A stretch of DNA of 43,774 bases from Hyphomicrobiales bacterium (GTDB taxonomy: Bacteria > Pseudomonadota > Alphaproteobacteria > Rhizobiales > Rhizobiaceae), in contig JAJFHU010000022.1 of the NCBI GenBank assembly GCA_021775455.1, forward strand, positions 1 to 43,774, in the 5' to 3' direction. A model generated the notes under the pieces. That model did no database searches and was not told the DNA's origin. It saw only the letters and a program-made list of their open reading frames with translations. The translations under genes and the position numbers were made by a program. Shown here piece after piece: positions 38,057 to 43,017 of this stretch; position 1 is the stretch's first letter, and every line of letters starts with the position of its first letter.

Positions 38057-38302
38057 ATGAGTACGAATCGCCAACATCTAAACTCAGCTGCAAAGAAAGA
38101 CATTCTTTCACAACTGAGCTGTGAAGCCGATGATGGTAGCTGCAGTCAGGCTAATTCACAGTTGCTAGGCAGAATTGCTGGCCTTCTCGGGCGTATAGCT
38201 GCTCGCGAATACATCTCACAACAACAAAGTGGCATGGTTGGCGATGCTGCGGATCTTGCGGAGAACTGCCACACTACTCCGGAGGATGACTGGGATGAAT
38301 AA
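38057..38302 (+). CDS. Small unknown protein upstream of the excisionase-like gene
   Basis: This is an 81-residue acidic protein: a predicted helical core (SQLLGRIAGLLGRIAAREYI) between polar ends, ending in TTPEDDWDE. No family recognised. The coding case rests on context: its TAA overlaps the ATG of the next gene (38295) by 8 bp, indicating translational coupling, and both sit in a tight co-directional row ahead of the recombinases. The start at 38057 is the most 5' ATG in frame; its ribosome binding site is weak (AAGAAG). Confidence 0.6.
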   Translation: MSTNRQHLNSAAKKDILSQLSCEADDGSCSQANSQLLGRIAGLLGRIAAREYISQQQSGMVGDAADLAENCHTTPEDDWDE

Positions 38303-38483
38303 TCATCAGAAATCGGACTATCAGACCGTTGCTGAGGTCGCTTGTGACCTCAATGTTTCGGAAAAACATGTCCGCCGCCTGATCAAGGGTGGCAAGCTGG
38401 CCTGCTACCGGTTCGGCAATGCCCTTCGCATCAGACGCGAAGACAAAGAAAAGTATGAGAAATCATGCCATTACGTGAAATAA
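38295..38483 (+). CDS. Excisionase-like / MerR-type helix-turn-helix DNA-binding protein
   Basis: This 62-residue protein is little more than one DNA-binding domain. DYQTVAEVACDLNVSEKHVR, then RLIKGGKLACYRFGNALRIR and REDKEKYEKSC, match the HTH_17 (excisionase/DNA-binding) pattern, where the first helix pair reads the DNA and GKLxxxRxGxxxRI forms the wing. The ATG at 38295 has GGAGG 9 nt upstream; the open frame extends 22 codons earlier, but that part is the shadow of the 81-aa gene. In integrative elements such proteins bend DNA for excision or control the integrase promoter. Its position just before three recombinase genes fits a recombination directionality factor. A 151-bp non-coding, A+T-rich gap follows. 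Confidence 0.85.
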   Translation: MNNHQKSDYQTVAEVACDLNVSEKHVRRLIKGGKLACYRFGNALRIRREDKEKYEKSCHYVK

Positions 38484-38634
38484 TGAAGATTTATAATATA
38501 AATATTATGATGTTTATTGGGAATATTAACACAAGTATAGATAACCAATATTATGTTTACACTTTCCCAATTTTAATCTATTGTCTACCCAAGTCCTCCC
38601 AAGACAACACTAGAACAGGAAGGATTGTTCCCAA

Positions 38635-40341: not shown

Positions 40342-41392
40342 CAAGAAAGTCAGATATCTCAAGCCTGAGGAATGGCCGGAGCCGGACCGCAAAGCCTGGC
40401 TCGATGCCTGTAAACCGCATCAGCGTTTGCAGCGGGGTGGACGGGCCGCTCACATGAAACCGGTTTCGCAACATGACCTTGCCCAGCGCTACGGCTGCTT
40501 TGTCGGCTTTCTGGAAAGAATTGGGCAGCTGAAACGTACCGAAACCGCGCTTGCCCAAGTCACACCAGAAATGATTGAACGCTATGTGGCAGATTTATCA
40601 CGCAGGGTCAGTTCGGTAACCGTTCATGGTTCCATATCCAAACTGAGGCGCGTAATTGAAATCATTGATCCGGCATTTGATGTTCAGTGGCTGAAGGAAC
40701 GCGGGCTGGAACTGCAGGAAAACATGCAACCCAAGTCCCGGGCAAACCAGATCGTATCAAGCAAACGGATATTTAATGCAGGAATTGCCCTGATAAAAAG
40801 AGCTCATTCACAGCCGGGTCTTACGTCCTTAAAAAGAGCACGCCTCGCCCGCAACGGATTGTTGATTGCATTCCTCGCCCTGTGTCCCATCCGTGTGAAG
40901 AACCTTGCTGCGCTCACGCTGGGCGAATCATTGATCCGTCAGGAAGGTCAGTGGTGGCTGTTGCTTTCTGAAGATGACACAAAGTCGAAACGCCGTGATC
41001 ACAGGATCATTCCTGATATACTCGTCCCCTGGATTGAACTCTACGTGACTGAACTGAAACCCGCCTTCCCGGATTCGGAAACGGCCATGTGGCCGTCCCA
41101 ATATGGTGGCAAAATGAGTACCGCCGGTATCCAGAGATTGGTGAATAACACAACAAGGCTCACCTTGGGAAAGGCATTGTCACCACACATATTCCGCAAG
41201 TGCGTTCCTCACACAATCGCGGGTATTGATGGATCGAGAATTGGCCTTGCTTCGTCCCTTTTGCAACACAGCGATCCGCGTACCACGGAAAAACACTACA
41301 ACTTGGCTTCCGGTGTTGAATCATCCAGAATATTCTCAAGGCTAGTAGACAGCATGAAAGTCACAGGAAAAGGAAAGCATCAATGGCGGTAG
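40331..41392 (+). CDS. Tyrosine recombinase/integrase (353 aa), second of three recombinases
   Basis: This is a 353-residue tyrosine recombinase. An N-terminal SAM-like DNA-binding domain (FVGFLERIGQLKRTETALAQ) is followed by the catalytic domain with Arg188 (CPIRVKNLAALTL), the beta-hairpin lysine region (DDTKSKRRDHRII), His286-x-x-Arg289 (SPHIFRKCVPHTI), His313 (LLQHSDPRTTEK) and the nucleophile Tyr323 (KHYNLASG). Lys290 replaces the usual histidine after Arg. I use the ATG at 40331; the frame is open from a TTG at 40304 but lacks better signals. It overlaps the upstream recombinase by 11 bp and the downstream serine recombinase by 10 bp, so all three are translationally coupled. The size pair 568/353 recalls TnpB/TnpA of Tn554-like systems, in reversed order. 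Confidence 0.93.
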   Translation: MTGSKKVRYLKPEEWPEPDRKAWLDACKPHQRLQRGGRAAHMKPVSQHDLAQRYGCFVGFLERIGQLKRTETALAQVTPEMIERYVADLSRRVSSVTVHGSISKLRRVIEIIDPAFDVQWLKERGLELQENMQPKSRANQIVSSKRIFNAGIALIKRAHSQPGLTSLKRARLARNGLLIAFLALCPIRVKNLAALTLGESLIRQEGQWWLLLSEDDTKSKRRDHRIIPDILVPWIELYVTELKPAFPDSETAMWPSQYGGKMSTAGIQRLVNNTTRLTLGKALSPHIFRKCVPHTIAGIDGSRIGLASSLLQHSDPRTTEKHYNLASGVESSRIFSRLVDSMKVTGKGKHQWR

Positions 41393-43017
41393 CGGCGATA
41401 TACGCAAGATACTCCTCCGACAACCAGCGGGATGCATCCATTGAAGATCAGGTTCGCCTGTGCAAACGCACAATTGAAAACAAGGGGTGGATTGTTGGCG
41501 AAGTTTATTCTGATCACGCCATAAGCGGCGCAAGTACATTACGACCGGGCTATCAGAAGATGCTGGAAGATGCGCGCAACGAACGGTTTGATCACGTGGT
41601 ATCAGAAGCACTTGATCGGCTATCCAGGGACCAGGAAAATATTGCCGGCCTCTACAAGCAACTGTCATTTGCCAACGTCTCATTGTTCACAGTCTCCGAG
41701 GGAGATATCAACGAACTGCATGTTGGTCTTAAGGGCACAATGAACGCGCTGTTCCTCAAGGACTTGGCGGACAAAACGCGCAGAGGGCTGGAAGGGCGGG
41801 TAAGAAAAGGAAAATCTGGGGGAGGAATTTGTTACGGGTATGATGTGGTTAGGTCTACAAACGCCATGGGGGAAGCTGAAAGAGGGGATCGCTGCATAAA
41901 TCCAGAACAAGCTGAAATAGTGGTACGGATTTTCGAAGAATTTGCTGCAAATCGGTCTCCCAGAAAAATTGCTCAAGAATTGAACAAAGAATCCGTTCCC
42001 GGTCCTTGCGGCGGATCATGGGGAGCGTCAACTATTCATGGCAATTGGCGCCGGGGTACAGGAATACTCAATAACGAACTCTACATCGGCAGGTTGGTTT
42101 GGAATCGCCAACGTTACGTCAAGGATCCCATATCCCAAAAACGCCAAGCCAGACTAAATCCAAAAAGTGAGTGGATCATCGAAGAAGTGCCACATCTGCG
42201 GGTAGTTGCACCCGAACTTTGGCAACAAGTCAAAGAGCGACAGAAAAAATCGCGCAATGTTGTCAAAACCGAAAACAAAATTCGTCCTGAGCGTATGCGG
42301 CGACATCGGTATTTGCTTTCTGGATTACTCAAGTGTGGCATTTGTGGAGGAGGTTTTTCAATCATAAACAAGTCACACTATGGCTGTTCGTCAGCACGAA
42401 ACAAGGGTACTTGCGATAACCGCCTTACTATCAAACGCACCTCATTGGAGCAACGCATCCTTGATGGCCTGAAAGATCAACTTATGCACCCAGATTGCGT
42501 TAGAGAATTTGTCAAAGAGTTTCACAAGGAAATTAACACCCTAGAGGCTGAACAAGGCAGCGAACGCAGAAATATTATGCGGTGTTTGTCAAAGGTGGAT
42601 AGAGAACTCGCAAATATCGTCCAGGCAATAAAAAATGGTGTACCGGCACTTTCACTGAAAGATGAGTTGTATTCACTTGAGGAACGTAAGCAAGATTTGG
42701 AAAAATCACTCAATCGCATCCCCTCAAATGTCGTACGTCTGCACCCAAATATGGCGGAGCTATATGCAGAGAAAGTTGCCAATCTGACCGGTGCACTGGA
42801 CAAAACGGATTCACATAATGAAGTATCTGATGCCATTCGTGCTCTAATAAGCGAAATTCGCCTTGTACCTGTCGACGGACAGATTACGGTGGAGTTATAT
42901 GGGGAGCTTTCAGCCTTGTTCGGCTTGGCAAATGACAGTACTCAGCGGAAAGATACAGAAGTACAAGTAACGTTGGTTGCGGGGGTAGGATTTGAACCTA
43001 CGACCTTCAGGTTATGA
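41383..43017 (+). CDS. Large serine recombinase (544 aa), third of three recombinases
   Basis: This is a 544-residue large serine recombinase. The resolvase domain begins at the N-terminus with the catalytic serine (Ser11 in IYARYSSDNQR), followed by DHAISGASTLRPGYQKML, SEALDRLSRDQEN and the E-helix region. Next come the recombinase domain (RRGLEGRVRKGKSGGGICYG, WGASTIHGNWRRGTGILNNE, LYIGRLVWNR), a zinc ribbon (CGICGGGFSI, CSSARNKGTC) and a coiled coil near 385-470. AGGAAAG stands before the ATG at 41383. The last residues (LVAGVGFEPTTFRL) are translated from the antisense of the tRNA-fMet gene; the stop TGA at 43015-43017 overlaps the anticodon. The gene therefore reaches into the tRNA, the expected picture if the element ends at the tRNA 3' end. 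Confidence 0.93.
   Translation: MAVAAIYARYSSDNQRDASIEDQVRLCKRTIENKGWIVGEVYSDHAISGASTLRPGYQKMLEDARNERFDHVVSEALDRLSRDQENIAGLYKQLSFANVSLFTVSEGDINELHVGLKGTMNALFLKDLADKTRRGLEGRVRKGKSGGGICYGYDVVRSTNAMGEAERGDRCINPEQAEIVVRIFEEFAANRSPRKIAQELNKESVPGPCGGSWGASTIHGNWRRGTGILNNELYIGRLVWNRQRYVKDPISQKRQARLNPKSEWIIEEVPHLRVVAPELWQQVKERQKKSRNVVKTENKIRPERMRRHRYLLSGLLKCGICGGGFSIINKSHYGCSSARNKGTCDNRLTIKRTSLEQRILDGLKDQLMHPDCVREFVKEFHKEINTLEAEQGSERRNIMRCLSKVDRELANIVQAIKNGVPALSLKDELYSLEERKQDLEKSLNRIPSNVVRLHPNMAELYAEKVANLTGALDKTDSHNEVSDAIRALISEIRLVPVDGQITVELYGELSALFGLANDSTQRKDTEVQVTLVAGVGFEPTTFRL
42973..42985. repeat. Right copy of the att-like repeat (tRNA-fMet 3' end)
   Basis: TTGGTTGCGGGGG covers CCA, the discriminator base and the acceptor strand of the tRNA-fMet (antisense). 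It is identical to 12242-12254, and nearly identical extended sequence occurs at 5731. This places a candidate crossover core at the tRNA 3' end, immediately beside the recombinase operon. Confidence 0.6.

Follow-up and report, generated by a model that had tools for sequence, protein, structure and literature searches.

Why would two tyrosine recombinases and a large serine recombinase be encoded by one run of overlapping genes that ends inside a tRNA gene? We met this arrangement in a 43,774-nucleotide stretch of DNA (hereafter the window), which is the whole of contig C15 (JAJFHU010000022.1) of a Hyphomicrobiales bacterium whose genome (GCA_021775455.1) comprises 3.51 Mb in 62 contigs. The two kinds of enzyme are unrelated, and a mobile element is usually taken to be driven by one or the other. 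Comparison of this locus with its relatives leads us to propose, with a probability of about 0.48, that the serine recombinase (Ser) would be the main integrase at the initiator tRNA gene (tRNA-fMet), and that the tyrosine recombinases Tyr1 and Tyr2, together with an excisionase-like helix-turn-helix (HTH) protein, would form a companion module performing a second recombination step for a genomic island. In what follows, a solo Ser gene is one without the Tyr1-Tyr2 pair and a trio is the order Tyr1-Tyr2-Ser. The locus is composed as follows.

38057-38302, forward strand: small protein of 81 aa with the motif LLGRIAAREY, matched (E 3e-4) by a hidden Markov model (HMM) of open reading frames (ORFs) found upstream of solo Ser genes
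38295-38483, forward strand: excisionase-like HTH protein of 62 aa (HTH_17, TIGR01764 'excise', PHROG excisionase families)
38484-38634, no strand: AT-rich gap of 151 bp between the HTH gene and tyr1, seen in the sequence
38635-40341, forward strand: Tyr1, tyrosine recombinase of 568 aa (Pfam Phage_integrase)
40331-41392, forward strand: Tyr2, tyrosine recombinase of 353 aa, XerA/XerH-like in its predicted structure
41383-43017, forward strand: Ser, large serine recombinase of 544 aa (Pfam Resolvase, Recombinase and Zn_ribbon_recom)
42974-43050, reverse strand: tRNA-Met(CAT) (ARAGORN, Rfam), read as the initiator tRNA and as the probable junction between element and chromosome
43012-43018, no strand: anticodon loop TTATGAG of this tRNA
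43176-43290, reverse strand: 5S rRNA, upstream of tRNA-Met(CAT) on its strand
43446-43774, reverse strand: large-subunit (LSU) rRNA, likewise upstream of tRNA-Met(CAT) on its strand

The operon begins one gene before the HTH gene, with the 81-aa ORF that overlaps it by 8 bp. Tyr1 and Tyr2 overlap by 11 bp and Tyr2 and Ser by 10 bp; the sole gap is the one before Tyr1, in which no attachment site was identified and no tRNA-like fragment was found. The genes of the module are probably co-transcribed. The stop codon of ser lies inside tRNA-Met(CAT), which thereby encodes the C-terminal GVGFEPTTFRL of the protein. This tRNA gene closes an rRNA operon (5S and LSU, Rfam) and is read as tRNA-fMet from that position and from a C1:A72 mismatch in its sequence, which we take to mark initiator tRNAs; it is the sole copy found in the assembly. 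A preliminary description of the stretch, made from its letters and starting at the HTH gene, had given coordinates, lengths and the 11- and 10-bp overlaps that hold on re-examination, and had set the trio at a tRNA gene, where the position of the Ser stop codon makes the association tighter than described.

We then counted how often this arrangement recurs. Relatives of Tyr1 (E <= 1e-20, each genome sample including the window's own genome) were found in 9 of 297 genomes of the order, 12 of 385 genomes of the class and 4 of 398 genomes of the phylum, these last four all belonging to the window's order. The order and class samples together hold 20 distinct Tyr1 loci: eight Tyr1-Tyr2-Ser, two with the pair and a divergent Ser, seven with the pair only and room present, and three unscored, among them L046, where room is present but Tyr2 merges into a 3368-aa frame. 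A scan with a Tyr2 peptide pattern gave 53 loci, a count that still holds six repeats of sampled loci (L051, L053, L054, L071, L083 and L093). Thirty-two of them are Tyr1-Tyr2-Ser; the remainder comprises two loci with a divergent Ser, three Tyr2-Ser without a Tyr1 being found, seven pair-only with room, five cut off, two with Tyr2 only and two without Tyr2. The trio order thus seen recurs in Alphaproteobacteria, its cultured bearers including Thalassobaculum litoreum and Roseovarius sp. EGI FJ00037, and we suspect misbinning where trio contigs are labelled Marinimicrobia or similar. A phage origin was considered and rejected, Tyr1 having no match in 50,697 phage records and three loci in IMG/VR, two of them with the full module.

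The packing of the genes was analyzed in 24 complete trios. For this and for the distance analysis, the active-site alignments, both trees, the HTH profile and the small-protein counts, near-copies and re-fetched loci were left out (L001-L003, L043, L051, L053, L054, L071, L083, L093, L136, L137, L144, L147, L148, L153, L156, L157, L159 and L161), as were rows under length or score limits; the small-protein count keeps the window, as L027. A candidate start codon (ATG, GTG or TTG) lies no more than 12 bp from the preceding stop at 23 of 24 Tyr1-Tyr2 junctions and 19 of 24 Tyr2-Ser junctions, indicating that the trio is not a chance neighbourhood. Protein distances are correlated between Tyr1 and Tyr2 (0.92), Tyr1 and Ser (0.63) and Tyr2 and Ser (0.55), each value being reached by 0 of 5000 permutations in which host relatedness was not controlled. 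The preliminary description had proposed to judge the trio by whether related loci usually carry one of the genes alone and whether the overlaps are peculiar to this genome. The answer is divided: Ser occurs mostly without the pair (of the 30 Ser loci fetched, 8 have Tyr2 directly upstream, and the remaining 22 include a few that are cut off or masked) and pairs without Ser are common (7 of the 17 scorable sampled Tyr1 loci), but the close spacing of stop and start recurs among the trios.

What precedes the HTH gene gives the arrangement its structure. A small ORF carrying a motif similar to LARLLARQAARE lies ahead of many solo Ser genes, and an HMM was built from 13 such ORFs lying just upstream of solo Ser genes, with segments chosen by eye and from solo loci only. 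Of the 28 trio loci in which 700 bp or more of upstream sequence was available, 26 have the small protein before the HTH gene by this model (24 of them at E <= 1e-3). It was detected in none of the 15 pair-only loci, in none of the four loci with a divergent Ser and in four of the eight loci whose right end was unscored. The HTH gene, for its part, goes with the Tyr pair: a homologue lies upstream of Tyr1 in 53 of 54 regions, on which the profile was iterated, and the profile has eight matches elsewhere among 11447 ORFs. Since the small protein precedes both solo Ser genes and the HTH gene of trios, HTH-Tyr1-Tyr2 is nested inside a serine-integrase module, and the order of the slot is constant wherever scoring of the small protein was possible. 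All five genes, in the same order, are also present on two IMG/VR contigs that had not entered the models; these contigs are counted as one observation because an identical 200-bp stretch is common to both. Scans of small-protein members against Pfam, NCBIfam and PHROGs gave nothing above cut-off, and we infer that the protein is a partner of the serine integrase and a candidate directionality factor. What seems new here, as far as the comparison of loci goes, is a solo Ser at tRNA-fMet with a small protein before it, and a tyrosine module nested between the two.

Is Ser itself tied to this tRNA? Relatives of Ser (E <= 1e-80) are present in 28 of 385 genomes of the class. We inspected 49 Ser 3' ends with Tyr2 alongside, and subtracting four repeats and four divergent ones left 41. 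Sixteen run into a complete tRNA-fMet, two meet a contig end or masked bases within it, seven keep a tRNA-fMet half as far as the anticodon loop, beyond which they diverge, five diverge near the tRNA 3' end, one lies at tRNA-Ser, and ten have no tRNA sequence or are cut off. Eight solo Ser genes also end in tRNA-fMet (L140, L141, L142, L145, L154, L164, L169 and L170), as does a solo Ser in a genome of the same genus (L208, genome G694), while other Ser relatives end at tRNA-Thr (L162), tRNA-Glu (L167) or another tRNA-Met (L160). Ser is thus tied to tRNA-fMet with or without the Tyr pair. Because solo Ser genes also run into tRNA-fMet, the role of integrase at that site falls more probably to Ser, with the Tyr pair as a companion, and the division of labour first suggested for the trio, with integration by the tyrosine enzymes and excision or resolution by the serine enzyme, is not supported.

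In other genomes, the identity of broken halves and remnants to tRNA-fMet ends 0-7 bases beyond the loop TTATGAG. We had taken these halves to mark where Ser crosses over, or to be free attP sites, and dropped the idea, as arm-domain phage integrases often follow them, also after three of six fMet remnants lying outside ser genes (L116, L117 and L130). Such integrases therefore also use this loop and may have made the breaks, which suggests that islands belonging to a second family of integrases stand in tandem at this tRNA. In L097 (6879-13612), past the broken half, a phage-type integrase is followed by McrB-N/HNH and SIR2-like genes, possibly a defence island. Five trio Ser ends (L052, L069, L075, L084 and L087) and the solo Ser of L172 retain only some 10-20 bases from the tRNA 3' end, beyond which the sequences differ. 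In L125 (G668), a decayed whole tRNA-fMet copy followed by 5S-like sequence, recognized by eye, lies about 30 kb from the intact one.

All three enzymes look active, their catalytic residues being largely retained among relatives. Tyr1 consists of a long helical N-terminal part followed by a Cre/XerH-like catalytic domain (AlphaFold, predicted local distance difference test score, pLDDT, of 86), with XerH and Cre as best PDB matches. The Tyr2 model (pLDDT 87) matches XerA and XerH best; the protein has no Pfam match and only a weak NCBIfam match, to XerD (E 4.5e-5). Both carry the R-K-H-R-H-Y set of tyrosine recombinases on a Cre/Xer fold, and the catalytic residues named in the preliminary description, as well as S11 of Ser, sit where it put them. 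In alignments of homologues from loci with Ser, excluding the window, R399, K432, R507 and Y541 of Tyr1 are kept in 35 of 35 sequences, the position of H531 being D or N in 12 of 35, and R188, K218, R289 and Y323 of Tyr2 are kept in 38 of 38. Ser has the domain set of large serine integrases (Resolvase N with the catalytic serine, Recombinase, zinc ribbon); its S11 is kept in 30 of 32 aligned homologues, the other two being gapped, and it matches CcrB and XisF of NCBIfam below cut-off as well as PHROG 95.

The Tyr pair also occurs away from Ser, and these loci bear on what it does. The pair-only loci L020 and L095 stop some 125 bp short of the 3' end of an intact tRNA-Arg(acg), and each of the two genomes holds one further tRNA-Arg 3' half (up to three mismatches) broken in the anticodon stem-loop and directly followed by an arm-domain phage integrase. 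If both tRNA-Arg halves bounded one island, its two ends would carry an ordinary integrase and the Tyr pair, respectively. The idea of the pair as a tRNA-Arg integrase was given lower odds, since arm-domain phage integrases adjoin the tRNA-Arg remnants. In L056, a complete trio, the fMet half is followed by other sequence and by an intact tRNA-Val 190 bp on; its genome contains one further tRNA-Val half, broken one base past the loop, with 199 bases visible beyond. In three loci (L025, L079 and L082) the pair is accompanied by a divergent Ser whose frame ends in a tRNA-Arg gene (ccg, acg, tcg), and in L074 (11392-12606) a phage-type tyrosine integrase at tRNA-Gly occupies the slot after the pair instead of a serine recombinase. 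The tRNA-Arg and tRNA-Val data allow a second target for the pair and do not show one; taken with the divergent-Ser loci and L074, the data from L020, L095 and L056 seem to fit better with a companion module travelling with several main integrases. A 253-aa ORF without Pfam match stands between Tyr2 and the divergent Ser of L082 (11041-11802), and another of 257 aa between Tyr2 and Ser in L041 (11497-12270).

The trees of the proteins point to repeated changes of state. In the Ser tree (61 rows, made with a quick method for which long branches were warned of), the trio label needs 7 changes, compared with 19.9 in shuffles, and at least two are forced by starred branches. In the Tyr1+Tyr2 tree (55 rows), 13 changes are needed, compared with 18.2 in shuffles, 6 of 500 of which were as low, and at least seven are forced. 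Thus, the trio state was gained or lost several times. The Tyr pair of the window groups with those of the pair-only loci L019, L020 and L095 (100, starred) and not with other trios, the pair of L056 lying next to this group (94, not starred). Among Ser proteins, that of the window comes closest to those of trios (59% to L069), with no starred group.

These data can be assembled into the following scheme. The window locus would be the chromosome-proximal end of a genomic island with Ser as its main integrase, acting at tRNA-fMet together with the small protein encoded upstream. The companion HTH-Tyr1-Tyr2, lodged between the genes for the small protein and Ser, would constitute a heteromeric tyrosine recombinase with its excisionase-like protein. 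The second step performed by this module would most likely be to excise or resolve integrated or tandem copies, and nesting would tie its expression to that of Ser. The companion is not bound to Ser, as relatives go with a divergent Ser, with a phage-type integrase or with an ordinary phage integrase seemingly at the other island end. Several observations weigh against this scheme. Most fetched Ser loci lack the Tyr pair, which is therefore dispensable. Arm-domain phage integrases follow the broken fMet half in three of seven trio ends (L041, L067 and L097) and three of four solo ends (L146, L149 and L155). The two tRNA-Arg halves of the L020 and L095 genomes sit on different contigs. Finally, the window's genome yielded no tRNA-fMet remnant (up to three mismatches), and the window itself no further tRNA-like fragment, so that this copy is only putatively mobile; the distal (left) end was sought by tRNA remnant, tRNA-like fragments and relatives' sequences adjoining tRNA-fMet, and was not found by these means.

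Another explanation could be that two independent engines share the island, Ser serving tRNA-fMet and HTH-Tyr1-Tyr2 acting as a complete integrase at a different tRNA, which in relatives would be that for Arg or Val. The island would then enter the chromosome by either route, and swapping the Tyr module in its fixed slot would amount to a replaceable second target. The Ser-less pairs of L020 and L095 close to tRNA-Arg(acg) agree with this, as does the L056 trio with tRNA-Val just past its fMet half and a further tRNA-Val half in the genome. However, the arm-domain phage integrase directly after the other tRNA-Arg half in both genomes could alone explain that junction, and the bases visible past the tRNA-Val break are too few to exclude a phage integrase there too, so we consider this explanation unlikely. 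We think it quite improbable that HTH-Tyr1-Tyr2 is itself a selfish mobile cassette, landing repeatedly between the small gene and ser without cooperating with them: the frequent changes of the trio label, forced in both trees, and the invariable slot would suit such a cassette, but the close stop/start packing and the correlated protein distances would not, and no long direct repeat flanks the tyrosine module in the window, nor was any repeat bounding it seen there.

A role apart from integration, in which the Tyr pair resolves plasmid multimers or switches expression, is brought to mind by the pairs on alphaproteobacterial plasmids and by L009, where the pair lies near parA and rep genes, yet pairs also stand at chromosomal tRNA genes and in one slot with a serine integrase, and we regard this role as very unlikely. 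As for three unrelated recombinase genes gathered by chance at a tRNA hotspot, tRNA-fMet is indeed an integration hotspot and each part of the set also occurs apart, but order, strand, packing and nesting are repeated in dozens of loci; recurrence and nesting rule chance out, leaving it a negligible probability. Ser as main integrase with a tyrosine companion is the reading that we retain.

We compared the locus with known multi-recombinase systems. Ser shares the domains of large serine integrase modules of the phiC31/Bxb1 type, and the pair is absent beside most of its fetched relatives, of which 13 have a small upstream gene (the HMM seed), whereas a full tyrosine module is nested here between the small gene and ser. 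RIT elements have three tyrosine recombinases with overlaps of 4-8 bp and occur mostly in alpha- and beta-proteobacteria (PMC3414803), the archetype proteins measuring 315-410 aa (PMC10214605). Three recombinase genes with short overlaps are common to both, but here the third enzyme is a serine recombinase, an HTH gene and a small gene are added, the site is a tRNA, and Tyr1 reaches 568 aa. A RIT element is a unit of about 3.5 kb between terminal inverted repeats, and none of the inverted repeats listed for window positions 37900-43060 flanks the trio.

The elements called GInts (ginABCD) and SEs (intA-tfp-intB-srap) are islands run by a multi-recombinase operon with a small protein (PMC5385486, PMC10214605). 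They resemble the present locus in having several recombinases and a small protein in one operon on genomic islands. Their recombinases (ginABC, accompanied by ginD, in GInts) are all of the tyrosine type and GinC lacks the first catalytic arginine, whereas here two tyrosine enzymes that keep the set are joined by a serine enzyme and an HTH gene comes first.

Tn554-type elements have one long and one short tyrosine recombinase in tandem (PMC3414803). The window shares this tandem and differs in having the long gene first, an excisionase-like HTH gene, a tRNA neighbourhood and an added serine enzyme, so that its order is long-short and then serine recombinase. The order in Tn554 is TnpA-TnpB-TnpC. 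A tblastn search of plasmids with Tyr1 (E 1e-5) returned 18 records, all from alphaproteobacterial genera, and no similarity to Tn554 or RIT elements on plasmids. Streptococcal integrative and conjugative elements can have three same-orientation serine integrases near the element end, thought to be duplicated (PMC4701971); position and orientation are similar, but all three are serine enzymes, whereas two chemistries meet here. A table in PMC10214605 sets out five groups of tyrosine-recombinase transposons with no serine recombinase among their proteins.

The idea, put forward in the preliminary description, of a tightly packed conserved set with two chemistries that fits neither RIT nor Tn554 is therefore borne out. 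No published description of the trio turned up: the parts consulted of the open-licence literature searched (PMC5385486, PMC10214605, PMC10121019, PMC3414803, PMC8138268, PMC4701971, PMC10868165, PMC13386836 and PMC12884075) contain no tyrosine-tyrosine-serine operon, and a description elsewhere is possible. Two DNA-joining machines that are normally alternatives would travel together on genomic islands, which raises the questions of what the second chemistry adds and how directionality is controlled. The Tyr pair, since it is also found with other integrases, may be a general companion module, and Ser belongs to a family of large serine recombinases with a tie to the initiator tRNA.

Some neighbouring features were recorded as well. 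Just upstream of the module, the window holds a 233-aa ORF (37305-38006) with no Pfam or NCBIfam match, a 29% relative of which lies upstream of the Tyr pair in L020. In L217, the stretch beyond the tRNA half, with its own integrase and a prim-pol gene, looks like a neighbouring satellite-like element. At the other side of the window, a 1031-aa ORF (2614-5709) fuses an ArsP-type permease domain, FG-GAP repeats and an UnbV/ASPIC domain.

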